From Bradyrhizobium guangzhouense (GTDB lineage: Bacteria; Pseudomonadota; Alphaproteobacteria; Rhizobiales; Xanthobacteraceae), in assembly GCF_004114955.1 (NCBI RefSeq), contig NZ_CP030053.1, forward strand, positions 5,952,001-6,016,000: a DNA stretch of 64,000 nucleotides. Direction: 5' to 3'. Numbering within the stretch: position 1 is the stretch's first letter; every line of letters begins with the position of its first letter. A model generated the notes under the pieces. That model made no database searches. It worked only from the letters and a program-made list of their open reading frames with translations, and was not told the origin of the DNA. The translations under genes and the position numbers were made by a program. This document shows, one piece after another, positions 3,077 through 18,376 of the stretch.

Positions 3077-4144
3077 GTGATCAAGCTCGACAGACGCAAA
3101 TTTCTGCTCGGCAGCGCCGCTACGCTCGCGGCGGGCTCATCTGCGTCAGCACTGCCGGCGTCGAAACTGGCCCAGCGTCATCAGGGCTATGGCGCCGCCG
3201 CCACGCTGTGGGATCTGCAGGCCGATCCGAGGCTGGGCGAAGCCATCAGCACCTATTGCACGCAGGTGGTGCCGGTGCTCGAACTGAAATGGCCGATGCT
3301 GCGGCCGGACGCGCACACTTTCGCCTTCGAACGCGCCGACGCCATCTATGATTTCGCGCAGAAAAACGACCTGACCATGCGCGGCCACACGCTCGCCTGG
3401 TATCACGACATTCCTGACTGGACCAAGCAGATCAAGGATTCGAAGGCTGTCGAGCGCGCCTATGTCGATCACATCTCGACCGTCGTGTCCTATTACAAGG
3501 ACAAGTTGACCTCGTGGGACGTCGTCAACGAGCCCATCCCTGACAATCCCAGGGACGTCAAGGACCGGCGCGACACGTTCTGGACACAGCATCTCGGTAG
3601 CAGCTGGATTCCGCTGGCGTTCCGCACGGCCGCAGCGGCCGATCCCTACGTCAAGCTCGCGATCAACGAATATGATATCGAGTCGGCGAAGGACTCGTTC
3701 ATCGCCAAGCGTGCGGCCTATCGCAACCTCATCATGGAGTTGCTGGATCAAGGCGTGCCGCTACACGCGGTCGGACTGCAATCGCATCTGCATGCCGAGC
3801 TCGAGATCGACACTCACGGGCTTGCCGAATTCGTCACCGAGATCCGCTCATGGGGTCTCGAGGTCTACGTCACCGAGCTCGATGTCAACGACGAGAAGCT
3901 GACGGGCAGCCCTACGGAGCGCGACGCCATCGTCGCCAAGCGTGTGAACGATCTTCTCACCGCGATCTGGACCAGCGGACCTGTGCGCTCGATCCTGAGC
4001 TGGGGCATTTCCGATCGCTACAGCTGGATCAACGGCTACGTCAAACGCCCGGACAAGCAGCCGAACCGGCCATTGCCGCTCGACGGCGAGTTCAAGCCGA
4101 AGCCGTTGATGGATGTCATCAGCAAGTTCACGAAGGACGTGTGA
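3077..4144 (+). CDS. Endo-1,4-beta-xylanase, GH10, Tat-exported
   Basis: A 355-residue glycoside hydrolase family 10 enzyme that cleaves beta-1,4-xylan with retention of configuration. The N-terminus carries a twin-arginine signal (DRRKFLLG followed by an Ala-rich stretch), so export should be folded and Tat-dependent. The catalytic acid/base is Glu152 in 'WDVVNEP' and the nucleophile is Glu267 in 'YVTELDVND'. 'MRGHTLAWYHDIPDW' and 'GLQSHLH' are further GH10 signatures. The start is GTG at 3077, preceded by a GGAAGGA ribosome site. Full length for a single-domain GH10; no carbohydrate-binding module is visible. Plant-cell-wall or own-glycan trimming are both possible. Confidence 0.93.
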   Translation: MIKLDRRKFLLGSAATLAAGSSASALPASKLAQRHQGYGAAATLWDLQADPRLGEAISTYCTQVVPVLELKWPMLRPDAHTFAFERADAIYDFAQKNDLTMRGHTLAWYHDIPDWTKQIKDSKAVERAYVDHISTVVSYYKDKLTSWDVVNEPIPDNPRDVKDRRDTFWTQHLGSSWIPLAFRTAAAADPYVKLAINEYDIESAKDSFIAKRAAYRNLIMELLDQGVPLHAVGLQSHLHAELEIDTHGLAEFVTEIRSWGLEVYVTELDVNDEKLTGSPTERDAIVAKRVNDLLTAIWTSGPVRSILSWGISDRYSWINGYVKRPDKQPNRPLPLDGEFKPKPLMDVISKFTKDV

Positions 4145-4163: not shown

Positions 4164-4958
4164 CTAGCCATCCGACGGCAGCCCCTGGGCCAGCCCGCGA
4201 AAGCGCAGCGGCGCCAGCGATGATGCGCGCTGCCACCAGTCGGCGACGCGATCGTCGAGCGCGGTCACCCCGCGCCCCTGACCAGGGAAGATCCGGATCT
4301 GTTGCACCGCTTCGGCGACGAACCCCTTGCCGCGGCGCGTGATCTTGAGTGCGGCGCCTTCGCGGTCCCGCTGCGTCAGCGGCACCAGCAGCCGGCCGCG
4401 CGGGCGGAGCGAGGCAAGCCAGAGCGGATGCGGATGCGGGAAGCCGGCATGCACCATGATGACATCGGACGGCTCGCCGACATCGCGACAGCCGTCGCCG
4501 TTGATCACCTCGACATTGTGATAGGCGCGCAGGTAGTTCGCAGCGCGCGCCGCCAGCCGCGCGTCGCATTCGATTGCGCGAACCCTGCCCTTCGGCCCCA
4601 CGATCTCCGACAGGATCGCCGAGAAATAGCCGAGCCCGCAACCGATCTGGACCACGCGGTCCTTTGCCCGGACATCGAGCAGATCGATGAAATGGGCCCA
4701 CAGGCTCGGCAGCCCGGTGTCGAGCTTGCGGCGCGCGTCGATGGCGACGAGCACATTGTCGTAGAGATGAACGGGATCGGCGCTGGGCGTCAGCCGGTAG
4801 CTGCGCGCCGCCTCGCTCTTGATGCGCCAGGGCCCTTTCGCCAGAAAATCTTCACGCGGCACCGACGCGAGCGCCGCAAGCAGGCGCGACGAACCAATCC
4901 GCTCGCGCTTCGCAATCAGCTCGACGTAGCGCGCCCGCGCGGCGGACAGGTCGGTCAT
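4164..4958 (-). CDS. Protein-L-isoaspartate O-methyltransferase family protein
   Basis: A 264-residue class I SAM-dependent methyltransferase of the PIMT family, which repairs isoaspartyl residues in aged proteins. The SAM site is 'VVQIGCGLGYFSAILSEIVG' with 'VRAIECDARLAARA' as the motif I/post-I pair and 'VINGDGCRD' as motif II. 'LYDNVLVAID' replaces the usual PIMT substrate loop (S-x-P), so this is a divergent member and true isoaspartate repair is not assured. Its ATG overlaps the stop of the upstream cyclase gene as ATGA (4955-4958), so the two are translationally coupled. It converges on the xylanase gene with 19 bp between the stops. Confidence 0.8.
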   Translation of the reverse strand: MTDLSAARARYVELIAKRERIGSSRLLAALASVPREDFLAKGPWRIKSEAARSYRLTPSADPVHLYDNVLVAIDARRKLDTGLPSLWAHFIDLLDVRAKDRVVQIGCGLGYFSAILSEIVGPKGRVRAIECDARLAARAANYLRAYHNVEVINGDGCRDVGEPSDVIMVHAGFPHPHPLWLASLRPRGRLLVPLTQRDREGAALKITRRGKGFVAEAVQQIRIFPGQGRGVTALDDRVADWWQRASSLAPLRFRGLAQGLPSDG

Positions 4959-7900
4959 TTCACCGGATCAGGCTGTGAACGCGCCGGAGTATCGCCGCCG
5001 AGCTCGTGCACCAGCTGCATCGCGAGCTTCAGGTCGGGCGTCAGGAATCCCTCGTTGAATTTGCCGACGATCGGCACGAGCAGAAGGCTCGCGTGCTCGC
5101 GCTTGCCCGATGTGTGCGACAACCGCGCGAGGCTGACTGCGGTTCTGAGCTCCCAGGACAGCGCACCCTGCTTGCGTGCCGTCTCCAGCGACTGGTCGAA
5201 CAGATCTTCGGCCTCCTGCACCGAGGCCGGATTGCCGTCCGACAAGATGATCTCGCCTTGCAGGCGGTAGACCTCGGCGAGGTAGGAGTGATCGCCGGTC
5301 CGCCTTGCGGTCGCAAGCGCACCGTCCAGCGCGCGCAAGGCGGCATCGCGCATGCCGACCTTGGCATAGGCCTCCGCGAGCAGGCAACGGAACCAGCAGC
5401 CGGCGAGCCAGGAATCCATCGCTTCATACTCGTCGAGACCGAAGCGCATCTGGCTGATGCCTTCGTCGGCCTCGCCGAGCTGGGCCAGCGCCCAGCCGCG
5501 CAGGATCGCGGCCTGCTGCTTCCAATGCAGGAAATTGTGCTCGGTGGCGATGATCATGGCGCGATTGGCGTGATCGCGCGTGCCCTCGATATCGCGCAGA
5601 TGCTGGCAGAGATAGGCGCCGAACACGAGCGCGAAGGCGAGCGAGAACGGATGGCGGATCTTCTCCGCAAGCGCAATCGCCTGCTCGCTGTGCCGGCGCG
5701 CCGCGTCGGGCTGGCCGAGGAACCAGAGGAGATAGCCGAGATAGGACAACGAGACGACGCCGGGATCGGTGCCGTGACGCTCCATCAGGTCGGAATGCAA
5801 ATCGGGACTATAGAGATCGATGCAGCGATGCAGATGATGCTGCGCGGCAGCGAAGCGCCCGCGATAGAGCATGGTCATTGCGATCGAGCGGTGCGCCTCG
5901 ATCAGATAGCCGGTCTGCTGCGCGGGGTCCGCGCGCTCGTTCAGCCGCTCGCGCTTGGCGAATTTCAGCAGCTCGACGCTGAGATCATGCGCGCGGGTCA
6001 GGTCGGCGCGGATGAAATGGCAGACCCATAGCCCGCGCGTGGCAGCAAAGGCCTTTTCGTCGTCGTCGAGCTGTTGGCCAAGCTCGAGGGCGCGCATGTA
6101 GTTCTCCTCGACCTCCTGCACGGCGTAGCCCTTGGCGGCGATCAGCGCGTTGCCCAGCGCGATCCGCAGCTCGAGCTCCATCTCGTCGGCGCCCTGCATG
6201 CGTGCATTGGCCTGCACGACGCTCAAGCCGCGGCGGAGATGGCCGATCGCCTCGAGATTGGCGCCGCTCTTGGCCGCCTGCTTGCCGGCCTTGAGCCAGA
6301 AGCTCGCCGCGCCCTCGCTCTGCCCGGACTCGGTCAGATGGTGGGCCAGCAGCTCCGGCTCGCGGTCGGTCTTCTCCGGATACATCTCGGCGAGGACCTG
6401 GGCGATGCTGGCATGCAGCTTGCGCCGCTCACTGTGCAAGAGGCTGTCATGCGCTGCGTTCTGGATCATCACGTGCTTGAAGGAGTAAAGCGCGTCGGGC
6501 GGATGCCCCCGGCGCATGATCAGGCCGGCCTCCTCCAGATGGGTCAGTGCCGCCTCGATCTGCTCCGCCGGCGTATTGGCGACGGCGTGCAGGGTCTCGT
6601 AGGAGAATTCGCGGCCGATGGTGGCGCCGATTTGCGCAATCCGCTTGAACGGCCCCATCCGGTCGAGACGCGCCATCAGCGAGTCCGTCAAGGTCGCCGG
6701 GATCGCGAGCTGCCGCCACGGACCCGACAGCACGTAGCGGCCATGCCGCTCGGTCAGGAGGTTGGATTCGAGAACGGTCTTGGTCAATTCCTCGAGGAAC
6801 AGCGGCACGCCATCGGTCTTGACGATGATCTCCTCGACGACCTCCTTGGGAAGTTCTCTGCCCGCAACGCGCTCGACCAGCGTGGTCCGCAGCGGCCGGC
6901 TCAGCCGGTTCAGCACCAGCGTGGTGATGTGCGAATGCGCGTTCCAGCTCGGCTGGAATTCGGAGCGCGCCGTGATGATGGCCAGGATCGGCCGATTCTG
7001 CACCTGAGCGACCAGCAAATCGACCACCTCGCGGGACGTCGGATCGATCCAGTGCAGATCCTCAAAGGCCATCACCAGCGGCATCTCGCGCGTGAGGCCC
7101 AGGAAGTGATTGACCAGCGCTGCGACAGTGGCGTCTTTCTGTTGCTGTGGCGATAGCTCCAGCGGCGGATAACGCTCTCCGGTCGGGATCGACAGCAGCG
7201 CGGCGAACAGCGGTGCCACCTGCTCGACGTCGCCGTGGGCTGCCGCAATCGCATTCTCCAGGCCCGCCAGCGACAGCGCGGAGGCATCCTCGCGGTCGAG
7301 GCCGAGCGAGAATTTGAGCTGCTCGACGAAGGGATAGAAAGCAGTGGAGGTGTAATAGGGCGAGCACTGGAACGCGACATGCCCGTGCCGGTCACCTGCG
7401 ATCCGCTCGAAAATCTCCTGGATGATGCGCGACTTGCCGATCCCGGGCTCGCCGAACTTGACGACGACCTGGCCGTCGCCCTCCTTGACCTGCTGCCAGC
7501 GCGCCATCAGCAGCGCGATTTCCTCCTCGCGATTGACGAGCGGAGTTAACCGCGTGCCCATGGCGGCGGCGAAGCGGGTCTCCACGCGCGTGGCGCGCAC
7601 GACGTGCCAGGCCTGGGTTTTTTCCGAGATGCCCTTCAGCGCATGGGCGCCGAGATTGCGATAATCGAACTTGCCCTTCAGCAGCGATTGCGTCGAGGCG
7701 GAGATCACCACGCCGTTGGGGGGCGCGAGCGCCTGCAAACGCGCGGCGAGATTGACGGTCTCGCCGACGGCGGAATCGCGCTCTTCGGTCCCCTGGCCGA
7801 CGAGGTCGCCGACCACGACGAGGCCGGTCGCGATCCCGATGCGCACGGCGGGCGCATGGCTGAGCGCGCCGCGCGGCTCGATTGCGCGCGCGGTCGACAG

Positions 7901-8419
7901 CACCCGCACGATCTCGAGCCCGGCGCGCACCGCGCGCTCGGCATCGTCCTCATGCGCGGTCGGATAACCGAAATAGACCAGAATGCCGTCACCGACGAAG
8001 CGGGCGGCGAAGCCCTCGTAATGCTTGACGACGCGCACGCAGGTTTCGCGAAAGCTGGCGATCATGTCGCGCACGTCTTCCGGATCGAATTGGGCCGAGA
8101 GCATCGTGGAATCCACCATGTCGCAGAACATGGTGGTGAGCTGGCGCCGCTCGGCGCCAACCTCCGTGCGGCTCTGCGGACGCGCCGGCGCAACCGGCGC
8201 CTCGACCGTCTCCGCCTTGAACAGCGCGGCCATGGCCCGCTGCAACCGCTTGCGATCGCCGAGCGGCAGCCCGAGTTCGGCAAGATCCGCCTCGGTCAGG
8301 TCGCCCATGACGTCGAGATCGAGGCGGTGCTGCGCGAACAGATCGGTGTAGTGACCGAGACCAATGCCTTCGAGCCAACGCTTCAACCCGACTTCCGTCC
8401 CCGGCTCATTCTCCAGCAT
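4955..8419 (-). CDS. SAM-domain class III cyclase / AAA ATPase / TPR signalling protein
   Basis: An 1154-residue multidomain protein. In order: a SAM domain (about residues 8-70, 'WLEGIGLGHYTDLFAQH'), a class III nucleotidyl cyclase domain (about 90-270), a STAND/AAA-type ATPase, then about 500 residues of helical TPR-like repeats. The cyclase shows both metal-binding aspartates, in 'MFCDMVDST' and 'FVGDGILVYFG'. The ATPase has Walker A 'GEPGIGKS' near residue 326 and Walker B 'LVMAFEDLHWID' near 450. This architecture is common in Bradyrhizobium and is usually called an adenylate/guanylate cyclase; effector and product are unknown. ATG 8419 is chosen over an upstream in-frame TTG at 8449 because SAM homology begins just after it. 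Confidence 0.88.
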   Translation of the reverse strand: MLENEPGTEVGLKRWLEGIGLGHYTDLFAQHRLDLDVMGDLTEADLAELGLPLGDRKRLQRAMAALFKAETVEAPVAPARPQSRTEVGAERRQLTTMFCDMVDSTMLSAQFDPEDVRDMIASFRETCVRVVKHYEGFAARFVGDGILVYFGYPTAHEDDAERAVRAGLEIVRVLSTARAIEPRGALSHAPAVRIGIATGLVVVGDLVGQGTEERDSAVGETVNLAARLQALAPPNGVVISASTQSLLKGKFDYRNLGAHALKGISEKTQAWHVVRATRVETRFAAAMGTRLTPLVNREEEIALLMARWQQVKEGDGQVVVKFGEPGIGKSRIIQEIFERIAGDRHGHVAFQCSPYYTSTAFYPFVEQLKFSLGLDREDASALSLAGLENAIAAAHGDVEQVAPLFAALLSIPTGERYPPLELSPQQQKDATVAALVNHFLGLTREMPLVMAFEDLHWIDPTSREVVDLLVAQVQNRPILAIITARSEFQPSWNAHSHITTLVLNRLSRPLRTTLVERVAGRELPKEVVEEIIVKTDGVPLFLEELTKTVLESNLLTERHGRYVLSGPWRQLAIPATLTDSLMARLDRMGPFKRIAQIGATIGREFSYETLHAVANTPAEQIEAALTHLEEAGLIMRRGHPPDALYSFKHVMIQNAAHDSLLHSERRKLHASIAQVLAEMYPEKTDREPELLAHHLTESGQSEGAASFWLKAGKQAAKSGANLEAIGHLRRGLSVVQANARMQGADEMELELRIALGNALIAAKGYAVQEVEENYMRALELGQQLDDDEKAFAATRGLWVCHFIRADLTRAHDLSVELLKFAKRERLNERADPAQQTGYLIEAHRSIAMTMLYRGRFAAAQHHLHRCIDLYSPDLHSDLMERHGTDPGVVSLSYLGYLLWFLGQPDAARRHSEQAIALAEKIRHPFSLAFALVFGAYLCQHLRDIEGTRDHANRAMIIATEHNFLHWKQQAAILRGWALAQLGEADEGISQMRFGLDEYEAMDSWLAGCWFRCLLAEAYAKVGMRDAALRALDGALATARRTGDHSYLAEVYRLQGEIILSDGNPASVQEAEDLFDQSLETARKQGALSWELRTAVSLARLSHTSGKREHASLLLVPIVGKFNEGFLTPDLKLAMQLVHELGGDTPARSQPDPVK

Positions 8420-8449
8420 GGTGATCCCGCCGTACACTCCCTCCGCCAA

Positions 8450-8554
8450 AGGGCTTAAGGTCCCTCAACCACAGATTTTGGGGCCCAAACTTCACCTTAG
8501 ACTGGACGCGTTCCCTAACTCCAGGGAAGAATAGCTCAATCGGATCAAAAGGGA
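8450..8554. promoter_or_regulatory. Divergent promoter region, cyclase / NRPS
   Basis: The 105-134 bp between the cyclase start and the NRPS start must drive both genes. It contains a GGGCCC palindrome near 8480 and a single CTTAAG hexamer near 8454. An AAGGGA ribosome site directly precedes the NRPS ATG. No promoter hexamers could be assigned with confidence. Confidence 0.4.
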
Positions 8555-11500
8555 ATGGCATTGTCGGAGATCGCATCCGAGGCGGGAGAGAGATCGGCCG
8601 GCGCGGGCACCGAAGCCGAGAAGCTTGCCGATATCGGCAGCCTTCTCGCGTTTCACGCGCGCACGATGCCGGCCGCGCCCGCCCTGATCGCCCCCGGCCG
8701 GCCTCCTCTGACCTATGGCGCACTCGGCGCCGGGATCGCTCATGTCGTCCGCACGCTGCGCGGGCTCGGCATTACGCCTGCCGACCGGATTGCCGTCGCG
8801 CTGCCGCGCGGGGCCGACGCTGCGTTGGCGCTGATCGCGGTGGCATCGACCTGCGCCTGCGTCCCCGTCAATCCCGACCTTACGGCGGACGAGCTGCAAC
8901 GCTATTTCAGCGAATTGAAACTCACCGCGCTCGTCACACGGGCGGACATGAATTCACCGAGCCGCGACGTCGCCAGAACGCTTGATATCGCGGTGATCGA
9001 TTTCGTGCCCGCAGCGGAGCCGGATCTCGGCGGCTGCGCGTTCGTGGGCCCGACGATCGGCCCAGCCTGTGCCGACGGCGCCGCCGGCGCGGAGGACGAT
9101 GCCTTCATCCTGCTGACATCGGGCACGGCCGCGCGCCCGAAGATGGTGCCGCTGACACACCGCAATGTGTGTCTCTCGGCGCAGAATGCCGGCCGGGTGC
9201 TTTCGCTCGCGCCGCACGATCGTCTGCTCAACGTCCTGCCGCTGTTTCATGCCCACGGCCTGATCTCCGGCCTCCTGACCGCGCTCGCGGCGGGCTCCAG
9301 CGTGATCGTGACCGGCGGCTTCGACGCCCCGTCCTTCTTCGGCTGGATGCGGGACCTGCAACCGACCTGGTACACGGCGGTGCCCACCATTCATCGCGCG
9401 CTGCTGACCGCCGCGGAAGCAAGCCCCGAGCGCGTCCGGTCATCGTCGCTGCGCCTGATCCGCTCGGCCTCGTCCTCGCTCGCGCCCGCGATCCTGAATG
9501 GGCTGGAGGCGATCTTCGGCGTCCCCGTGCTGGAGACCTATGGGATGACGGAAGCGGCCTCGCAGATCGCGGCCAATCCGTTCGAGCTGCGCAAGATCGG
9601 CTCGGTCGGCCGGGCCGCCGGCCCCGAGATCGCGATCATGGACGAAGCCGGCCGCCTGCTTGCGCACGGCCAGCATGGCGAGATCATGCTGCGCGGAGCG
9701 AACATGAGCCGCGGCTATTGCAATGACGAGGCGGCAACGCAGGCCGCGTTCCGCAACGGCTGGTTCAGGACCGGTGACCTCGGCTATCTCGACGCCGACG
9801 GCTATCTCTTCATCGTCGGCCGCATCAAGGACGTCATCAACCGCGGCGGCCAGAAGATCTCTCCGCTGGAGGTGGAAGAGGTGCTGCTGGCCCACCCCGC
9901 GGTGCTGGAAGCCGGCGTCTTCGCCATTCCCCATGCCAAGCTCGGCGAGAACGTCGCCGCCGTCGTGGTGCTCAGGGACAATTCCGAGACGACCTCCGAC
10001 CAACTGCGCCAGTTCGCACGGAAGCGGCTCGCCGCCTACAAGGTGCCGAGCCTGATCCGCAGCGTGGCCGCGCTGCCGAAGGGCGCCAGCGGCAAGGTCA
10101 AGCGCAATGCGCTGGCCGAGCTGATTTCAGCGCCCCATGATGACGACGAGACCCAGCTGCCGCGCAACGAACTGGAAACCCAGCTTGCCGGGATCTGGGC
10201 CGATCTGCTCGAGCTTCCGCAAGTCGGCATCGATCAAGACGTCTTTGCGCTCGGCGCGGATTCGCTCGCGGTCACGCAGATGCGCTCCCGCCTGCGCGAA
10301 CGCTTCAACATCGACTTCTCCTTCGAGGACATCTTCGATTGCGCCACGGTCGGGGCTCTTGCGGCCCGGATCGAGACCACGGCGCACCGCGATGCGACGC
10401 TGCCGGCATGGCGCCCGTCGGCCGCCGAAGGTGACGCGCCGCTCTCGTTCCAGCAGCAGCGGATGTATGTGCTCTCGCGGCTCGACCCGACGCGCTACAA
10501 TTATAACGTGGTCGAGGTCGTGCTGCTGAAGGGACGGGTCGACCTCTGCGCGCTTCAGTCAAGCCTCGCGGCAATCTGCGCGCACCATGAGGTGCTTCGC
10601 TCGGTCTTCGTCGAAAGCCAGGGCGAGCCGATGCAGCGCGTGCGTCAGGCGCCCCTGCTCGAACGGATCAAGCTCAAGCCCTGCCCGGCCGACAAGCAGG
10701 CAGCGGTCGTCAGGCGCGAGGCACTCAAGCTCGCGCAATACACATTTGATCTCGCCCGCGAACCGCCGCTGAAGGTCACGCTGCTCTCCTTCGACAAGTC
10801 CAGTCATGCGCTGGTGGTCAATGTCCATCACCTCGTCACCGACGGCTGGTCGCAGCGGCTGTTCTGGGAGACGCTTGCCGCCGGCTATTCCGCCGCGCGC
10901 AAGGCAAGTACGCCGGCGTTGCCATCGTCCAGCTTTCAATATCGCGACTTCGCGCGCTGGCAGCAGAGCTGGGCGCAGACGCCGGCCGCGAAAGAGCAGC
11001 TCGATTACTGGCGCGTGCAACTCGACGGCATCACCACGCTGCCGCTGCGAACCGACCGGCCGCGGCCGGAAGTCTGGAGCGGCCACGGCGCCCGTCATTA
11101 TTTCGAATTCTCCAAGGCCGTTTCCGCCGACATCCGCGTGCTGAGCCAGGACCAGGGCGTGACGCCTTACATGGCGCTGCTCGCGGTATTCCAGTGCCTG
11201 CTGTTCCGCCACACGGGGCATGAGGATGTGGCGACGGGATCGCTGATTGCGAACCGCAACCAGATCGAGAGCGAGCGGCTGATCGGGCTGTTTGCCAACA
11301 CGCTGATCCTGCGCAACGATTTCAGCGGCAACCCGACCTTCGGCGAGCTGCTGCGCCGGGTGCGGCAGGTCACGCTCGATGCCTATCGCAACCAGGACCT
11401 TCCGATCGAGGAGGTCCTGCGTGCGCTGCAGATCGCCCGACGGAGCGACGGCAATCCGCTGTTCCGGATCATGTTCATCCTCCAGAACGCATCGATCGAG

Positions 11501-14500
11501 GCCGCGCGCTTTCCAGGCCTGTCGACGCGGCGGCTGGAAGTTGACCCCATAGTCGCGCGCTTCGACATCACGCTCGAGCTGGTCGAGGCCGAGGGCCGCT
11601 TCACCGGCTTCTTCGAATATGCCACCGATCTTTTCGATGCGGGTACGATCGAGGCCATGGCGGACCAGTTCAAGACCCTGCTCAAGGCCGCCATCGCCGA
11701 TCCCGAACGGCGCATCTCGCACCTGCCGCTGCTGACGGCCACCGAGCGCCGGCAATTGCTGGCGAAGGGCCGGCCTGCCAACTTCGCCGTGCGCGGACAT
11801 CTCTGCGAACGCTTCGAGCGGCAGACGAAAAAGACGCCGAACGCGGTGGCGATTTCCGACGGACTGACGTCGCTGAGCTATCGCGAGCTGGCTCGGCGCA
11901 GCCAGGCGATCGCACGCTGGCTCGCCCGCGAAGGCGTCGGTGCCGAAACGGTGGTCGGGCTTCTGGCCGATCGCGGGCCCGATTTGCTCGCAGCGATGAT
12001 TGCGGTGCAGCGTGTGGGTGCGGCGTTCCTGAATCTCGATCCCGAGCAGCCGCCGGCGCGGCTCGCAACCATCCTCGGGGCGAGCTGCGCAAGCCTGCTG
12101 CTGACGGGGCGCGCGCAGTCCGCCATGGTCGACACGCTGCTCGAGCCGCTGGTCGCGCGCATTCGGGTCGCCGAGCTCGACGATGCGATCGCACCCGAAT
12201 CGACCAAGCCGGGCCACCCTGCGCGGCGCGCGGATTCGAGCCTCGCTTATCTCATCTTCACGTCCGGCTCCTCCGGCGCGCCGAAAGGCGTCATGATCGA
12301 GCAGCGCGGGCTGTCGAACCATCTCGCCTCGCTGATCGACGAACTCTGCCTCACCGCCAAGGACGTGATCGCGCAGACTGCGCCACAGAGCTTCGTCATT
12401 TCCGTCTGGCAGTTCCTTGCCGCTCCCATGGTCGGCGCACGCGTTCATGTCTGCGCCAGCCCGGTGGTGCAGGATGCGATGCTGCTGGCACGCGAAATCG
12501 AGCGCGAGCGCATCACGGTGCTCGAGATCGTGCCCTCGCTGCTCCGCGTGATCCTCGAACGGATGGACGAGGCGCCGATGCTGCGCGCTTTTGCCAGGCT
12601 GCGGCTCTTGATCTCGACCGGCGAACCGCTGCCGGTCGATCTCTGCCGCGCCTGGTTTGCCCGCTGCCCGAAGGTGCCGCTGATCAACGCCTATGGCGCC
12701 TCGGAGTGCTCTGATGACGTCTCCCTGCACCGGCTGACCCGCGCACCCGACGCCGCGACGACCAATGTTCCGGTCGGAGCACCACTGCCCAATACCCGGA
12801 TCTACGTGCTCGATCCGCATCTGGAACCGCAGCCGATCGGTGTGGTCGGCGAGCTCTGCATCGGCGGCGCCGGCGTCGGCCGCGGCTATGTCAACGATCC
12901 CGCGCAGAGCAGGGAGCGCTTCATCCCCGATCCGTTCGCGCGAGCGGAAGGCCGCCGGCTCTACCGCACCGGCGACCTCGCCCGCCGCCGCGCCGACGGG
13001 ACGATCGAATGCCTCGGCCGCGCCGACCTTCAGGTCAAGGTGCGTGGTTATCGCATCGAGCTCAAGGAGATCGAGGCCGCGCTTGCCGACCACGCAAGCG
13101 TGCGGGCCGGCATCGTCGAGCCGCGGCGCGACGCCAACGGCGATGTCAGGCTGATCGCCCATGTGGTGGCCAAAGCCGGCAGCCGGATCAGCGCCAGCGA
13201 ATTGCGGGACTTCCTCAGGAGCCGGCTGCCTGTTCATGCGATCCCGTCGGCGTTCCTGTTCCTGGATCAGGTCCCGCTCAATGCCCACGGCAAGCTCGAT
13301 CGCTCCGCCCTGCTGGCGCCCACGCAACAGGAGAGCGCCGCGACCGAGACCGCCGTGCCGGCGCGCCGCTTCACCGAAAAGGTCCTGTCCGACATCTGGG
13401 GCGATCTGCTGAAAGTCGAGAGCCTTGGTGTCACCGACAATTTCTTCGACCTCGGCGGTCATTCGCTGCTGGCCGGCCAGGCGATGGCGCGCGTCTCCCG
13501 TGCACTCGGCGTCTCGCTGCCGATCAAGACCATTTTCGAGGCACCGACGATCGCAGAGCTCGCCCGGCGGGTCGACGAGGCCTTGGCCGCGACGCCGCAA
13601 AAGCCCACGGCCGGCGTTCCACGCCTGGCCGAGAGCGCGCCCCCCACGCTCTCGATCGCGCAGGACCAGATGATGCGGATCGAGCAAAACCTGCCCGATC
13701 TGCCGCTGTTCAACCTGCCGTTCGCCTTCCACCTCGAAGGCCCGATCGATCCGCGTACCCTGGCGCAGGCCATCGACGACATCGTCCGCCGCCACGAATC
13801 ATTGCGGACGGCGTTCGGCTGGAATGGCGAGGAGCCGGTCAGCCGCGTCCTCGCGCCAGCCACGCTCGGTCCGATCCTGACCGTCGAGACCCTCGGCGAC
13901 GGGCGGCCCCACACCAACCAGCGGCGCAAGGCGCTCGAATTCAGGAAGATCGAGCTCCTGATCGCGCAGGAGGCCTATAGCCCCATCAGCACCGCCCGAG
14001 CCCCGCTGCTGCGGGCGCGGCTGCTGCGCCGTCACGCCGAGGATCACGTGCTGATGCTGACGCTGCATCATGCCATCGCCGATGGCTGGTCGATCGGCGT
14101 TCTGTTCGAGGAATTGTCCAACCGCTACGCCGCGCTGACGGGCCGTCGGTCGCCGCCCCTGCCGAAGAAGCCGCTGGCGTTTTCCAGCGTCGCGCGCTGG
14201 CAGCGCTGGTGGTGCGGAACCGCGGCGGCCCGCCGGCAGGCCGCCGACTGGGCCGAGAATCTGCGCGCTGCGGCCCCCCTCTTTGACGGCAAAGCACGCC
14301 CGGGCGCGTCGACCGGTCACCATCCGCTCAGCCTGGAGCGCGATCTCGTCGCCGGTCTCACCTCCCATGCGCGCCAGCACAACAGCACGTTGTTCATGTG
14401 TCTGCTCACCGGCCTGAAGGCCCTGCTGCTGGCGCGGACCGGGCGCACCGACATCTCGGTCGCCACCGCCATGGCCAACCGCGCTCAGCCAGACACTGAT

Positions 14501-14989
14501 CGCATCATAGGCCCGTTCGAAAACACCGTGATCATCCGCAGCCGGATCACGCCGGATCTGTCATTTGCGCAGGCCTTGGGCCGCGTACGCCAGGGCGTGC
14601 TCGACGCACATGCGCGGCAGGAGCTGCCGTTCAACATCCTGGCCGACCATCTGGAGCAGGAGGGCATCGACCCGGCTTCGCTGCTTCAGGTCTATTTCAC
14701 GCTGCAAAACCCGCTGCGCCAGCCGCTGGAGCTGCCCGATGTCACGGTGCGATCGATCGGAAACGTCGCGCGCGAGGGCCAGCCGGTGCTGCCGGTCGAC
14801 CAGACCCTGATGTCGCTGATGCTGAAGGAGCGTCCGACCGGGATCACAGGGTCGTGCAATTACAAGGACGATCTGCTCGACGGCGCCACGGTCGGCGCAT
14901 GGATGGAGGATCTCGTCGCGCTGCTCGAGGCGGCCATCCTCCGGCCAAACACGCCGCTGGAGCGCTTGCTCGCCCGCAAGGCGGCATGA
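8555..14989 (+). CDS. Non-ribosomal peptide synthetase, A-T-C-A-T-C
   Basis: A 2144-residue NRPS. A1 spans about residues 20-520 (LLTSGT at 186-191). Its 'GRIKDVINRGGQKISPLEVEE' region near 422 resembles acyl-/oxalyl-CoA ligases rather than a standard amino-acid A domain, so it may load a carboxylic-acid starter. T1 has Ser570 (GADSLAV). C1 has an intact HHLVTDG at 758-764. A2 spans about 1075-1590 (FTSGSSGAPKG near 1234, HGKLDR at its end). In A2 the residue that is normally Asp235 (F-D-I-S-V-W) is Val1281. T2 has Ser1637 (GGHSLLAG). C2 has HHAIADG at 1838-1844 and ends the protein. There is no thioesterase or reductase, so release probably uses C2 and an external acceptor. An AAGGGA site precedes the ATG. 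Product unknown. Confidence 0.95.
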   Translation: MALSEIASEAGERSAGAGTEAEKLADIGSLLAFHARTMPAAPALIAPGRPPLTYGALGAGIAHVVRTLRGLGITPADRIAVALPRGADAALALIAVASTCACVPVNPDLTADELQRYFSELKLTALVTRADMNSPSRDVARTLDIAVIDFVPAAEPDLGGCAFVGPTIGPACADGAAGAEDDAFILLTSGTAARPKMVPLTHRNVCLSAQNAGRVLSLAPHDRLLNVLPLFHAHGLISGLLTALAAGSSVIVTGGFDAPSFFGWMRDLQPTWYTAVPTIHRALLTAAEASPERVRSSSLRLIRSASSSLAPAILNGLEAIFGVPVLETYGMTEAASQIAANPFELRKIGSVGRAAGPEIAIMDEAGRLLAHGQHGEIMLRGANMSRGYCNDEAATQAAFRNGWFRTGDLGYLDADGYLFIVGRIKDVINRGGQKISPLEVEEVLLAHPAVLEAGVFAIPHAKLGENVAAVVVLRDNSETTSDQLRQFARKRLAAYKVPSLIRSVAALPKGASGKVKRNALAELISAPHDDDETQLPRNELETQLAGIWADLLELPQVGIDQDVFALGADSLAVTQMRSRLRERFNIDFSFEDIFDCATVGALAARIETTAHRDATLPAWRPSAAEGDAPLSFQQQRMYVLSRLDPTRYNYNVVEVVLLKGRVDLCALQSSLAAICAHHEVLRSVFVESQGEPMQRVRQAPLLERIKLKPCPADKQAAVVRREALKLAQYTFDLAREPPLKVTLLSFDKSSHALVVNVHHLVTDGWSQRLFWETLAAGYSAARKASTPALPSSSFQYRDFARWQQSWAQTPAAKEQLDYWRVQLDGITTLPLRTDRPRPEVWSGHGARHYFEFSKAVSADIRVLSQDQGVTPYMALLAVFQCLLFRHTGHEDVATGSLIANRNQIESERLIGLFANTLILRNDFSGNPTFGELLRRVRQVTLDAYRNQDLPIEEVLRALQIARRSDGNPLFRIMFILQNASIEAARFPGLSTRRLEVDPIVARFDITLELVEAEGRFTGFFEYATDLFDAGTIEAMADQFKTLLKAAIADPERRISHLPLLTATERRQLLAKGRPANFAVRGHLCERFERQTKKTPNAVAISDGLTSLSYRELARRSQAIARWLAREGVGAETVVGLLADRGPDLLAAMIAVQRVGAAFLNLDPEQPPARLATILGASCASLLLTGRAQSAMVDTLLEPLVARIRVAELDDAIAPESTKPGHPARRADSSLAYLIFTSGSSGAPKGVMIEQRGLSNHLASLIDELCLTAKDVIAQTAPQSFVISVWQFLAAPMVGARVHVCASPVVQDAMLLAREIERERITVLEIVPSLLRVILERMDEAPMLRAFARLRLLISTGEPLPVDLCRAWFARCPKVPLINAYGASECSDDVSLHRLTRAPDAATTNVPVGAPLPNTRIYVLDPHLEPQPIGVVGELCIGGAGVGRGYVNDPAQSRERFIPDPFARAEGRRLYRTGDLARRRADGTIECLGRADLQVKVRGYRIELKEIEAALADHASVRAGIVEPRRDANGDVRLIAHVVAKAGSRISASELRDFLRSRLPVHAIPSAFLFLDQVPLNAHGKLDRSALLAPTQQESAATETAVPARRFTEKVLSDIWGDLLKVESLGVTDNFFDLGGHSLLAGQAMARVSRALGVSLPIKTIFEAPTIAELARRVDEALAATPQKPTAGVPRLAESAPPTLSIAQDQMMRIEQNLPDLPLFNLPFAFHLEGPIDPRTLAQAIDDIVRRHESLRTAFGWNGEEPVSRVLAPATLGPILTVETLGDGRPHTNQRRKALEFRKIELLIAQEAYSPISTARAPLLRARLLRRHAEDHVLMLTLHHAIADGWSIGVLFEELSNRYAALTGRRSPPLPKKPLAFSSVARWQRWWCGTAAARRQAADWAENLRAAAPLFDGKARPGASTGHHPLSLERDLVAGLTSHARQHNSTLFMCLLTGLKALLLARTGRTDISVATAMANRAQPDTDRIIGPFENTVIIRSRITPDLSFAQALGRVRQGVLDAHARQELPFNILADHLEQEGIDPASLLQVYFTLQNPLRQPLELPDVTVRSIGNVAREGQPVLPVDQTLMSLMLKERPTGITGSCNYKDDLLDGATVGAWMEDLVALLEAAILRPNTPLERLLARKAA

Positions 14990-15124
14990 CCAGCCGGACC
15001 GGCGAACACGAGTTCACCCGTCAAAGCTGTGAATGCCCAAGTTGCATCTTGATTATTTGGCTCCAGCGCGCGAGATTATTCCTGCGTTTTGATTTGGACT
15101 GATTTCAACCGGGGGAGTAGCGTT

Positions 15125-15292
15125 ATGGGTTTCATCAAATTTACCAAAGGCACCTCGCTCAGCGACAAGGACCGCAAGTCGCTGCAGAAGCTGCTCACGG
15201 GCGAGAAGAAGAAGCTTCAGTCCGCACTGAAGGACGTCGACGCCAGCCTTTCGATGCTGGGTGGCGGGAAGAAGGCCAAGAAGAAAAAGTAA
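15125..15292 (+). CDS. Small lysine-rich protein in the NRPS locus
   Basis: A 55-residue basic protein beginning MGFIKFTKGTSLSDKD and ending GGGKKAKKKK. The middle (about residues 14-45) is a predicted amphipathic helix; there is no signal peptide or membrane span. A strong GGGGGAG ribosome site at 15111-15117 lies 7 nt before the ATG, which is the best evidence that it is translated. It lies 135 bp after the NRPS and 229 bp before the phosphopantetheinyl transferase, on the same strand. I do not recognise the family. It could be a nucleic-acid-binding or carrier-associated accessory protein; no function is assigned. Confidence 0.65.
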   Translation: MGFIKFTKGTSLSDKDRKSLQKLLTGEKKKLQSALKDVDASLSMLGGGKKAKKKK

Positions 15293-15425
15293 GATTCGTC
15301 GGCCGGGACGCCGCGCGGATCTTCGCATTTTCATTTTCGATTTGGGCCGCTCGCCTGTCGGGTTGGGGTCTCGCACAAGCTTGCGCCTGTAAACCGGCCA
15401 GCAATCGACAAGAATTTGCCCGGGT

Positions 15426-15444
15426 GGACCGCTAGAAGCGGTCC
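15426..15444 (+). terminator. Hairpin after the small lysine-rich gene
   Basis: A perfect 7-bp stem, GGACCGC / GCGGTCC, with a 5-nt loop (TAGAA), lies about 130 bp after the small gene and 78 bp before the PPTase start. There is no U-tract, so it could be a weak terminator, an RNA-processing site or a 5'-leader structure of the next gene. Confidence 0.35.
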
Positions 15445-15521
15445 GCCGAGTTGCTTCCTGTTCGGTTGATCCTTCAGTCAGGGCCGGATTTGGCCTCCGC
15501 CTGGCGCTATGGGCCCAATTG

Positions 15522-16253
15522 ATGGCAGACGACGGAATTGAGCTGTTTGTCGGATTGATCGAGAGCATTGATACCCCCGGCGCGGTGGACGCGTGCCGAC
15601 GGTTGCTCTCGGTCGACGAGCAGATGCGCGCCGACCGCTTCAAGTTTGAACGGCATCAGCGGCAATATGTCTTCGCGCATGCGATGCTGCGCCTCGCGCT
15701 GTCGCACGCGGCCCCGGATGTCGAACCGACCGACTGGTCGTTCTCGACCGGACGCTATGGGCGGCCCTTTGTCGCAGCGCCTGCGCCTTCGACGCCGCTG
15801 CATTTCAGCCTGTCCCATGCCGACGGCTGCGTCGCCTGCGTCGTGTCAAGGCATGAGACGGTCGGCGTCGATGTCGAGACCGTGTCGCGGCGCGTCGCGC
15901 CGCTGTCGACCGCGCTTCGCTTCTTTGCGCCGGAAGAGGTCGAGACGCTCCGCACGCTGCCGGAGCCCGCTGCGATCGAGCGATTTTTCGACTATTGGAC
16001 GCTGAAGGAAGCCTATCTGAAAGCGAGGGGTTTCGGGCTCAACCTGCCGCTCGACGCCTTCGCGATGCAGGTGTCGCGGGAGGCGATCAAGATCAGCTTC
16101 AGGCCCGAGATCGCCGATGATCCGGCGGGCTGGCGCTTCTCGCTGTGCTCGCCGTCGCCCTCGCATCGCCTCGCCATCGCCGACGGCTCGCGCGCGGCCG
16201 GCGGCCTGACCATCACCCGCAACGCCTGGCCGTTCCAGGAAGCGGCGGAGTGA
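15522..16253 (+). CDS. 4'-phosphopantetheinyl transferase, Sfp type
   Basis: A 243-residue enzyme that moves the phosphopantetheine arm of CoA onto the Ser of carrier domains. Both family motifs are intact: 'VGVDVE' near residues 113-118 and 'WTLKEAYLKARGFGL' near 158-172. Length is normal for Sfp-type enzymes. Its place next to an NRPS with two carrier Ser residues (570 and 1637) makes that protein the obvious client. ATG 15522 is used; an in-frame TTG directly before it adds one residue. Its stop overlaps the next gene's start as ATGA-type TGATG (16251-16255), so the two are translationally coupled. Confidence 0.92.
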   Translation: MADDGIELFVGLIESIDTPGAVDACRRLLSVDEQMRADRFKFERHQRQYVFAHAMLRLALSHAAPDVEPTDWSFSTGRYGRPFVAAPAPSTPLHFSLSHADGCVACVVSRHETVGVDVETVSRRVAPLSTALRFFAPEEVETLRTLPEPAAIERFFDYWTLKEAYLKARGFGLNLPLDAFAMQVSREAIKISFRPEIADDPAGWRFSLCSPSPSHRLAIADGSRAAGGLTITRNAWPFQEAAE

Positions 16254-17230
16254 TGTCGGCGCGGCTGCGCGTGTTTCCTGCGATCTCGCGCAACCGCGAT
16301 CCCAAAAAATATGTCGGCGAGCTGATGCGGGTGGCTGAGTTCGCGGACCGCAACGGCTTCGAGGGCATTTTGCTGTTCGAAGGCAATGACGTCTTCGTCG
16401 AGCCTTGGGCGATGGCCCAGCACATCATGGCGGCGACGACGCGATCCTCGCCACTGATCGCCGTCAACCCCGTCTACATGCACCCGTACACGGCGGCGAA
16501 GTTCGTTTCGTCCTTTGCGCAGCTCTACAGCCGCAAGGTCTATCTCAACATGATCACGGGGACCGCGATCAGCGACCTGCAGGGGCTCGGCGACGATCAG
16601 TCTCACGCCGACCGGTATGTCAGGCTAGACGAGTTCGTCAGCCTGATGCGACAGCTGCTGTCGAGCCCGCGCCCGGTGAATGTCGACGGCCGGTTCTATC
16701 GCGCCAGCAATCTGCAACTGCGGCCGCGCCTGCCGGCCGAGCTGATGCCGGAGTTCTTGATCGCGGGGCAATCGGACGCCGCCAGGCGCGTCGCCGAGGA
16801 GACCGGCTGCATCAAGATGCAGATGTTGCCGCCCGACCTCGATCGCGGGCTCAACGCGTCGGGCATGAACTTCGGCATCTTCGCGCGCGAGGGTCGCGAG
16901 GAGGCGCGGCAGGCGGCGAAGACCCGTTTCCGCGACAATCCCGACGATCGCGAGCTGCTCGCGCTGACCGTCGAAAATTCAGATTCCGTCTGGAAGCGGC
17001 TGATGTACGAGGGCCAGAGCGGCGAGCTCGCCGACAATGGCTATTGGCTGCTGCCCTACCTCACCTTCCAGGCCGACTGCCCCTATCTCGTCGGCAGTTA
17101 TGCCGAGATCGGCGCCAAGCTGAAGCAGTTTGCGGCGAAGGGGCTGACCACGGTCATGCTCGACATGGTCGCTGACGAGGCCGAGATGCAGCACGTTTGC
17201 AACGCGCTCGAGGCGAGCGGGATGTTTTGA
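16253..17230 (+). CDS. Luciferase-like (LLM) flavin-dependent monooxygenase
   Basis: A 325-residue bacterial-luciferase-fold oxidoreductase that uses reduced FMN or F420. 'FEGILLFEGNDVFVEPWAMAQ' near residue 36, 'TRSSPLIAVNP' and 'YLNMITGTA' are conserved strand ends of the barrel. It resembles the alkanesulfonate-monooxygenase-like proteins found within or beside NRPS clusters. Translation is coupled to the PPTase by a TGATG overlap, so it probably tailors the NRPS product by N- or C-oxidation (inference). It is followed by a palindromic repeat and a convergent deacetylase gene. Confidence 0.85.
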   Translation: MSARLRVFPAISRNRDPKKYVGELMRVAEFADRNGFEGILLFEGNDVFVEPWAMAQHIMAATTRSSPLIAVNPVYMHPYTAAKFVSSFAQLYSRKVYLNMITGTAISDLQGLGDDQSHADRYVRLDEFVSLMRQLLSSPRPVNVDGRFYRASNLQLRPRLPAELMPEFLIAGQSDAARRVAEETGCIKMQMLPPDLDRGLNASGMNFGIFAREGREEARQAAKTRFRDNPDDRELLALTVENSDSVWKRLMYEGQSGELADNGYWLLPYLTFQADCPYLVGSYAEIGAKLKQFAAKGLTTVMLDMVADEAEMQHVCNALEASGMF

Positions 17231-17254: not shown

Positions 17255-17334
17255 CGTCATTGCGAGCGCAGCGAAGCAATCCAGATTGATGCCGAGGAAA
17301 GATTCTGGATTGCTTCGCTGCGCTCGCAACGACG
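17255..17334. repeat. Long inverted repeat between convergent genes
   Basis: Two 30-nt arms (17255-17284 and 17305-17334) are reverse complements with one mismatch, separated by 20 nt. The core of the left arm is ATTGCGAGCGCAGCGAAGCA. It lies between the convergent LLM and deacetylase genes and would form a very stable cruciform or RNA hairpin. It is a REP-like intergenic palindrome of the kind scattered through Bradyrhizobium and Rhodopseudomonas genomes, and may also act as a bidirectional terminator. Confidence 0.85.
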
Positions 17335-17350
17335 GAGAACGATGACCAAT

Positions 17351-18376
17351 TCACCGCGCCTCTTCGAAGCCCGCCAGTACCGAGGTCAGGTTGGCGCCGA
17401 GAATGTCCGAGAGATAGCCGCCCTCCTGCACGAACACGGTCGGCAGGCCCAGCTTCGCAATGGCCTGGCCGATGCGACGGAAGCCTGAGGTGGTGACGGC
17501 AAGCCCCTTCAGCGGATCGTGCTCGGAGGCATCGAGGCCGAGCGCGATCACGACTGCGCCGGGTGAGAAGGATTCGATCGCCTTGCGCGCGACGTCCATC
17601 GCCCTGAGATAGCCGTCATCGCCGGTGCCGATCGCCAGGGAAATGTTGAGATTGGCGCCGAGGCCGGCGCCCTCGCCGCGCTCATGCGCGTAGCCCCACA
17701 CATAGGGATAATAGGCGACCGGATCGGCGTGGATCGAGATCGTGTAGACGTCCGGCCGCGCGTAAAAGATGCCTTGCGTGCCGTTGCCGTGATGGACATC
17801 GACGTCGAGGATCACGACGCGCTCGTGCTTTTGCCGGAGATGCGCCGCCGCGATGGCGCTGTTGTTGAGGAAGCAGAAGCCGCCGGCCATATCGCGATAG
17901 GCATGGTGGCCGGGCGGACGGCAGAGCGCATAGACTGCATCCTCGCCGTCCATCACCATCTGGGCCGCTGTGACCGCAACATCCGTCGCGGCGCAGGCCG
18001 CAGCCCAGGTGCCAGGACCGATCGGGGCCGCTGTATCGGCGGTGTGCCAGCCGAGCTTGCCGACGATATGGGTGGGATAGGTCGCGGCGTGGCGGACGGG
18101 ATGGATGTTGCCGATCATCTCCGGACCGGAATCGCCGAGTGCCGTCCAGGCATCCCAGGCTTCGCTCAGGAACGACAGATATTCCGGGCTGTGAATGCGT
18201 GCGCGCGGGCCCTGGCCGAACTTGGTCGGCTCGACCAGTTGATGCTTGCCGTCCTTCAACCCCTTGAGCAGGCGGTCGGCGCGCTCGGGCTGCTCGGTGG
18301 TGCGCTTGACGACGCCACGAACCAGGAAGAATTGCGGATCGTGGCTGCGGTGCAGTTCAGTATGGACGGCCTTCAC
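17351..18376 (-). CDS. Histone deacetylase family protein (acetylpolyamine amidohydrolase-like)
   Basis: A 341-residue zinc-dependent deacetylase of the arginase/HDAC fold. The active-site signatures are present: 'RPPGHHA' (catalytic His pair), 'DVDVHHGNGTQ' (zinc ligands Asp and His) and the late 'LGLDASEHDPL' and 'EGGY'. Length and the N-terminal 'SHDPQFFLVRG' resemble bacterial acetylpolyamine amidohydrolases more than acetoin-utilisation AcuC. It probably removes acetyl groups from acetylated polyamines or other small amines in the cytoplasm. Polyamine-type catabolic genes lie 6-13 kb away, which fits but does not prove that substrate. Confidence 0.88.
   Translation of the reverse strand: MKAVHTELHRSHDPQFFLVRGVVKRTTEQPERADRLLKGLKDGKHQLVEPTKFGQGPRARIHSPEYLSFLSEAWDAWTALGDSGPEMIGNIHPVRHAATYPTHIVGKLGWHTADTAAPIGPGTWAAACAATDVAVTAAQMVMDGEDAVYALCRPPGHHAYRDMAGGFCFLNNSAIAAAHLRQKHERVVILDVDVHHGNGTQGIFYARPDVYTISIHADPVAYYPYVWGYAHERGEGAGLGANLNISLAIGTGDDGYLRAMDVARKAIESFSPGAVVIALGLDASEHDPLKGLAVTTSGFRRIGQAIAKLGLPTVFVQEGGYLSDILGANLTSVLAGFEEAR

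Follow-up and report, generated by a model that had tools for sequence, protein, structure and literature searches.

We analysed a 64,000-nt stretch of Bradyrhizobium guangzhouense DNA (contig NZ_CP030053.1; the window, whose positions serve as coordinates below) and followed up a biosynthetic unit centred on a two-module nonribosomal peptide synthetase (NRPS). The original prediction had placed four genes on one strand, namely an NRPS, a 55-aa lysine-tailed protein, a phosphopantetheinyl transferase (PPTase) and a luciferase-like monooxygenase (LLM), and all four were found there. As predicted, adenylation (A), carrier (T) and condensation (C) domains run A-T-C-A-T-C: Pfam recovered all six, the motif positions fixed their order, and no domain lies beyond the second condensation domain (C2) of the 2144-aa protein. 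The PPTase and LLM open reading frames (ORFs) overlap at TGATG, the coupling that had been described. A PIMT-like methyltransferase gene and a nucleotide cyclase-ATPase gene overlap at ATGA, and both are divergent from the NRPS. Scanning the window for Rfam families and tRNAs gave no match. The features are as follows.

8555..14989, plus strand: two-module NRPS, A1-T1-C1-A2-T2-C2, 2144 aa, no thioesterase (TE) (open ORF; Pfam AMP-binding twice, PP-binding twice, Condensation twice)
8627..10129, plus strand: A1, acyl-CoA-ligase-type adenylation domain nearest oxalyl-CoA synthetases (comparison with PDB structures)
10181..10372, plus strand: T1 carrier domain, LGADS (Pfam, motif)
10427..11761, plus strand: C1 condensation domain, HHLVTDG (Pfam, motif)
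11813..13324, plus strand: A2 adenylation domain, code V-I-W-E-I-T-A-D-D-K (read at what we take to be the GrsA positions)
13352..13549, plus strand: T2 carrier domain, LGGHS (lowest dN/dS among the six domains)
13622..14986, plus strand: C2 terminal condensation domain, HHAIADG (Pfam, motif)
15125..15292, plus strand: 55-aa helical protein with lysine-rich tail, GGGGGAG ahead of the gene (ORF, selection, predicted structure)
15522..16253 (start 15519 or 15522), plus strand: Sfp/HetI-type PPTase, assigned by its ACPS domain (Pfam, 60 bits)
16253..17230, plus strand: SsuD-like FMNH2-type LLM (Pfam Bac_luciferase, 91 bits)
4955..8449 (likely start 8419), minus strand: SAM - class III nucleotide cyclase - AAA_16 ATPase - TPR protein (domain search)
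4164..4958, minus strand: PIMT-like methyltransferase (domain search; genome linkage)
8420..8554, no strand: divergent intergenic region between the cyclase gene and the NRPS (gene positions)

Of the 195 Bradyrhizobium genomes sampled, 79 had an orthologue of the LLM (E up to 1e-100), counting the window's own genome, and the LLM homologues that bore an organism name among the best matches listed were from Bradyrhizobium. Outside the genus, LLM matches at E 1e-40 were only 33-36% identical (G078 among 296 family genomes; G801, at 33%, among 385 class genomes; G and L numbers are our labels for genomes and loci). The distribution within the family rests on this LLM search and a small-protein search of 248 genomes, and that beyond the family on the LLM search of the 385 class genomes. 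Three of the 84 loci with an LLM (L038, L039, L108) did not carry the unit and were excluded, and the window genes were mapped on the remaining 81, all from other Bradyrhizobium genomes. Counting the best tblastn piece of at least 50% identity and any length, we found A1T1 and C1 in 81 loci each, A2T2 in 79, C2 and the PIMT-like gene in 76 each, the cyclase gene in 75, and the small protein and PPTase in 72 each. With at least 70% of the query in one piece, the counts were A1T1 80, C1 79, A2T2 79, C2 75, cyclase 71, small protein 71, PIMT 76, PPTase 72 and LLM 81. The synthetase ORF reached at least 2000 aa in 73 loci and measured 1751-1753 aa in four loci of a sister lineage with a TE (L036, L037, L040, L041; the TE type below). 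Among the five loci without the PIMT-like gene, the fetched stretch or the contig stops before it in four (L026-L028, L101); in the genome of L046 (G332) the gene was absent genome-wide at E 1e-50.

Linkage was then counted in one set of 60 genus genomes. The LLM occurred in 25 of them, the PIMT-like gene (at least 62% identity) in 25 and both in 24; the small protein (E <1e-8) was found in 25, the LLM being also present in 24, and PPTase orthologues (at least 58% identity) in 26. On these counts the PIMT-like and cyclase genes belong to the unit. The gene-neighbourhood check across the genus thus upheld the prediction of a conserved, compact natural-product unit around the LLM, and its four-gene boundary was too narrow, with the PIMT-like gene linked as tightly as the LLM (24/25) and the cyclase gene in 75 of the 81 loci.

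The LLM and PPTase are variable accessories. Genome G350 has the PIMT-like gene, synthetase, small protein and PPTase, and its LLM search gave no match. Three further loci, L206 (G212), L207 (G105) and L208 (G080, another genus), carry the synthetase, small protein and cyclase gene in genomes without an LLM match at E 1e-40, so that the LLM, one of the four predicted genes, was dropped as the core enzyme. Nor did 'dedicated' suit the PPTase, for which the stretches fetched at L042-L044, L206 and L207 gave no match and which was present in G305 and G310, where no LLM, PIMT-like gene or small protein was found. Outside the TE type, the synthetase, the small protein and the cyclase gene make up the recurring set; the LLM, PIMT-like gene, PPTase and a flavin-containing monooxygenase (FMO) gene vary. 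This 544-aa FMO, of FAD/NAD-binding families, lies by divergent synthetases (L046 3298-4932; L207 16895-18490) and is absent from the window unit. Broken units also occur: the synthetase is largely missing in L030 and is not one long ORF in L072 and L100, and the LLM was not found in L110.

The 55-aa ORF is no chance ORF, because its mean pairwise dN/dS over the first 45 codons was 0.14 (597 pairs, 67 sequences), whereas the same DNA read in the +1 frame gave 0.95; the lysine-tailed protein of the original prediction is a real gene under purifying selection. It had 107 homologues in the protein database, and those with an organism name among the matches listed were from Bradyrhizobium. The predicted structure is one helix (residues 14-53; mean pLDDT 75.5, low at both ends), and most of the invariant positions are helix leucines, the tail contributing K49 and K54 only. 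Eight stand-alone copies compared had 6-11 K/R in their last 16 residues. The full 55 aa had no Pfam match (E 1e-3) and residues 3-55 no NCBIfam match. MbtH-like NRPS helpers are likewise very small proteins encoded beside an NRPS; MbtH identity was rejected on the lack of a Pfam or NCBIfam match, and the 55-aa protein differs from them further in its predicted single helix and in the similar stretch found fused after a T domain. The small gene adjoins the synthetase in the main clade and in L042-L045, L111, L206 and L207, and lies within about 4 kb of it in L208; at these loci outside the main clade, divergent small proteins accompany divergent synthetases. Weak small-protein matches also came from G304, G342 and G269 and, in the family search, from G138, G242, G204 and, G080 aside, the other genera that matched.

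That fused stretch was found in the TE type, whose LLM is 73-74% identical and whose loci carry the PIMT-like gene, a 1751-1753-aa NRPS1, the LLM and a second NRPS of 1342-1343 aa. For the L037 proteins, the only ones submitted to Pfam, NRPS1 read A, T, C, A, T and the second NRPS C-A-T-TE; the A code of the latter, read by eye, was DILQLGVIWK, which resembles a glycine code. Neither the cyclase gene nor a small gene of its own was found at the four TE-type loci. A profile scan of the four whole genomes placed the best non-relic match to the small protein each time in the NRPS1 C-terminus (weak, E 0.0098-0.071), and we therefore dropped as main reading the idea that the small protein is tied only to a terminal C domain, with the TE type representing a loss. 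Profile-profile alignment (hhalign) of the small protein with the NRPS1 tail gave a probability of 90.5 and P 1.3e-6 over 35 columns. The family hidden Markov model scored 14.8-15.9 bits on the four NRPS1 tails, while among 4000 shuffled tails the highest score was 11.6 (whole-sequence scores for the shuffles, domain scores for the tails); among canonical synthetase controls, L025 and L104 scored below zero and L042 and L045 gave no match. Pairwise z values against the L037 tail were 10.3 (L042), 8.6 (L206), 7.8 (L207), 5.7 (L109), 5.7 (L111), 4.2 (window), 3.7 (L104) and 2.1 (L208). The stretch sits after T2 at the end of NRPS1 in the TE type and is a separate gene elsewhere. Judged from these comparisons, the 55-aa protein is related to the segment fused to the sister synthetase, which is the best-supported new statement of this work.

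Docking domains of NRPSs and polyketide synthases are a close likeness, in that the fused stretch is short, helical and at a subunit C-terminus in the TE type; the small protein departs from them as a separate gene in the other lineages seen. By a term search of a docking-domain review (PMC9113145), 'stand-alone' or 'standalone' appears there in three places, only for acyltransferase (AT) domains and split modules. The 55-aa protein is probably a detached, stand-alone docking or recruitment module. T2 was the most strongly constrained of the six synthetase domains, which we counted in favour of the pathway model proposed below.

In three TE-type genomes, a small gene in decay is still present at the canonical site (L193-L195), together with a PPTase that is 86-88% identical along its whole length; no NRPS or LLM was found there, except one C2 fragment in L194. 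Those genomes have lost the canonical unit and bear the variant elsewhere. The scars at L193-L195 and L209 share one pattern, a small-gene relic and a well-conserved PPTase left after loss of the NRPS and LLM.

For the synthetase we compared 78 sequences, those of the window and 77 loci, leaving out L030, L046, L072 and L100 (broken or cut). As in a modular NRPS, A, T and C follow in order, with a carrier Ser and HHxxxDG; the latter was intact in 78/78 C1 domains and in 74/78 C2 domains, the other four being the TE type, which has no C2. Mean dN/dS of the domains ranged from 0.087 in T2 to 0.221 in C2 (150 pairs, 64 synthetases). No TE or reductase terminus was found in the window NRPS by Pfam, so the predicted lack of a TE stands for this protein; it fails as a general trait, since TE-type relatives have a C-A-T-TE second synthetase (Pfam, L037). 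A second locus with three condensation-domain matches lies in the window's own genome (C1:1540350-1554891, C1 being here a contig label).

The nearest solved structures to A1 were oxalyl-CoA synthetases (PDB 5ie0, 6qjz and 8aff, presumably plant and yeast enzymes), with E values of 2e-111 for 6qjz and 2e-109 for 5ie0; the next acyl-CoA ligase, FadD13, followed at 1e-61. Because of this overall resemblance, A1 should load an acyl starter. It differs from these enzymes in being fused to a carrier and a C domain and in one residue, the His that ends TEA(S/T)H in the three solved enzymes and has a role in oxalate binding, which is replaced by Ser in 78/78 synthetases. Because of this replacement oxalate itself is doubtful, and the substrate is probably another acid. 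The A2 code, at positions assumed from GrsA, was VIWEITADDK in 70 synthetases and VIWQITADDK in 8, the sole variation being E/Q at one position, and the same code recurred in L111 and in the LLM-less L206 and L207. Position 235 was Val in 78/78, not the alpha-amine-binding Asp expected for alpha-amino acid activation, and Asp stood at 330 and 331. The loss of the alpha-amine Asp together with the two Asp residues suggests a beta- or omega-amino acid as A2 substrate. Asp 331 of A2 is shared with the beta-alanine code VDWVISLADK, for which the literature searches gave no printed source. The nearest solved relatives of C2 include a type II C-domain protein (4znm, 2.8e-34; SgcC5, as we take it), which makes release onto a free nucleophile plausible.

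By profile, the window LLM was nearest SsuD (1m41, 8e-36) and thereby resembles the two-component SsuD/RutA-type LLMs, yet four kin of 30-36% identity lie in adenylation/carrier/PPTase-type clusters, not in sulfonate operons. Distant kin in Tritonibacter, Gemmobacter, Rhizobium and Streptomyces plasmids have adenylation, carrier, P450, halogenase or PPTase genes as neighbours. A survey queried with distant kin, of which the best 80 of 193 were kept, describes this wider family, not the window clade: in 78 of 85 loci with distant kin there was an adenylate-forming enzyme, and in 66 a DLxF-type A code such as DLFFLCLIAK. The association of the wider family with carrier-loading enzymes supports a role of the LLM on a tethered intermediate. 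Luciferase-like MupA, a separate flavoenzyme, acts on a substrate bound to an acyl carrier protein (excerpts of PMC10952193), and BmdC is another separate flavoenzyme, an oxidase acting on a carrier-bound intermediate (excerpts of PMC8795117). Both belong to other pathways, and BmdC has another fold; the LLM studied here may likewise act on a carrier.

Some observations concern the wider LLM family itself. It spans Gemmatimonadetes, Acidobacteria, Planctomycetes, Actinomycetospora, Nitrospira and others (L113-L192, L006-L009, L108), and its neighbour is an adenylation enzyme encoded on its own, whose code hardly varies (DLFFLCLIAK and variants, 66 of 85 loci) and resembles that of stand-alone proline loaders. 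Members of three short-protein clusters occur in 38 of the 85 loci, and the two clusters sampled match PP-binding.

The PIMT-like protein had as its best NCBIfam match an FxLD methyltransferase of ribosomally synthesized and post-translationally modified peptide (RiPP) systems, at 87 bits, far under the cut-off of 320. The cyclase domain keeps the FCD, GDG and NLAARL motifs, and the protein has a Walker A sequence, GEPGIGKS. It scored 550 bits on TIGR03903, the kinase/cyclase fusion of thiazole/oxazole-modified microcin (TOMM) systems, under the curated cut-off of 706; no TOMM genes were noticed, in the course of work that included no search aimed at them. As its gene belongs to the unit and is divergent from the NRPS, the cyclase-ATPase is a natural candidate and probably the regulator, so that the predicted absence of a regulator was incomplete.

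On the flanks, a histone-deacetylase-family gene (17351-18376, minus strand, 254 bits) was mapped near full length at 89-97% identity in 56 loci. It was rejected as a pathway member and is a flanking gene, because it persists where the unit has decayed (L193, L195, L209). A perfect 21-base inverted repeat, GCGAGCGCAGCGAAGCAATCC, lies at 17262-17327 between it and the LLM, with no copies in the window beyond these two when up to 2 mismatches were allowed; it may be a terminator or repetitive element. A GH10 family glycoside hydrolase gene (3077-4144, plus strand) adjoins the other side and was mapped at least partly in 60 of the 81 loci.

We propose, at a probability of roughly one half, that the unit encodes a lineage-specific NRPS pathway to a small acyl-amino acid conjugate, with the 55-aa protein as a detached docking or recruitment module. 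In this scheme the PPTase would turn both carrier domains, T1 and T2, into their holo forms; A1 would load a carboxylic acid, not an amino acid, onto T1, and A2 would load a beta- or omega-amino acid onto T2. C1 would join acyl starter and amino acid and, because no TE is present, C2 would condense the chain with a free nucleophile and so release it. The LLM would oxidise a carrier-bound or released intermediate, the PIMT-like enzyme would probably methylate a carboxylate, and the cyclase-ATPase would probably regulate the pathway. Next to T2, the helix and basic tail of the 55-aa protein may bind the synthetase and bring partners to it. The pathway is ordinary in its enzyme classes and unusual in three respects: the logic of an acid plus a non-alpha-amino acid, the C domain at the terminus and the small protein that partners the synthetase.

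Several observations weigh against this proposal. The four fused tails are near-identical orthologues and, on that similarity, count as one fusion event, not as repeated support. The lysine tail is not kept in every member, since the L037 tail is basic-poor (3 K/R in the last 16) and the L111 copy ends DDDAN. In L208, the locus from another genus, the A2 code is DIWQTIADTK, with Asp at 235, and differs from the main clade, and the small-protein copy aligns weakly (z 0.3 with L042, 2.2 with L206, 2.1 with the fused tail). The small gene can outlive the synthetase, since L109 and L112, which came up through their small-gene match, keep it with an FMO gene and no synthetase between them; the PPTase, too, is retained in G305 and G310, which lack the rest of the unit. 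In L109 (9905-11847) and L112 (130-2153) FMO and small gene lie side by side, and the L109 pair adjoins a cyclase paralogue.

An unlikely alternative is that a free small amine, for instance a polyamine, takes up the chain from C2, by VibH/SgcC5-like logic, and that the 55-aa protein is a genetically linked regulator, nucleic-acid-binding or antimicrobial peptide. It draws on 4znm among the nearest solved C domains, the predicted basic helix and the persistence of the small gene without a synthetase in L109 and L112. The stretch fused into TE-type NRPS1 argues against the second half, as does the recurrence of the small protein with the synthetase where the LLM, PIMT-like gene and PPTase were not found; the release half is compatible with the docking model.

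That C2 hands its chain to a carrier protein encoded elsewhere, the window being part of a larger assembly line, is in our view quite unlikely. The TE type does continue in a second synthetase (C-A-T-TE in L037), and the own genome has more C domains near 1.54-1.55 Mb, but these are more than 4 Mb distant, and no conserved extra partner was noticed by the unit on the 81 loci, where only the window genes were mapped.

Very unlikely, as we judge it, is that the lysine-tailed protein is itself the substrate, C2 moving the acyl-aminoacyl chain onto one of its lysines to give a ribosomal-nonribosomal conjugate. A terminal C without TE where the small protein stands alone, a TE where the segment is fused and lysine-poor, the 6-11 K/R of the stand-alone tails and the FxLD-type match of the PIMT-like neighbour, sub-threshold as it is, would all fit. 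However, the TE type, which needs no acceptor, also has the segment, fused behind T2, the L111 copy ends acidic, and invariance falls mostly on the helix leucines, with only K49 and K54 from the tail. A protein that serves as both docking element and acceptor, C2 coupling the chain to its lysines, seems if anything harder to credit.

Finally, a variant of the malleobactin-type siderophore NRPS, of which mbaAB homologues are reported in 85/278 Bradyrhizobium genomes, MbaAB being described with epimerase and TE activities and an ornithine monooxygenase gene in 41 strains (excerpts of PMC12815270), is scarcely credible, as the window NRPS has neither an epimerase nor a TE domain, A1 is acyl-ligase-like and A2 is without the alpha-amine Asp.

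Searches of the open-access literature gave no counterpart for the A2 code, a terminal-C/ribosomal-peptide conjugate or a stand-alone docking protein, and no matching case for a carrier-acting LLM beyond the precedents cited. The unit was described neither in the Bradyrhizobium NRPS and antiSMASH papers among the matches listed nor in the excerpts of PMC12815270, in searches that excluded MIBiG and most subscription papers; within the searchable literature, the prediction that the locus matches no described pathway holds.

The orphan pathway is widespread in a soil genus of agricultural importance. On the docking model, its 55-aa protein is a candidate for a new class of NRPS partner: a helix encoded by a gene of its own in most of the lineages seen, yet built into the megasynthase in another. 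The family would offer a testable model of the origin or detachment of docking segments, and possibly a handle for recruiting tailoring enzymes.

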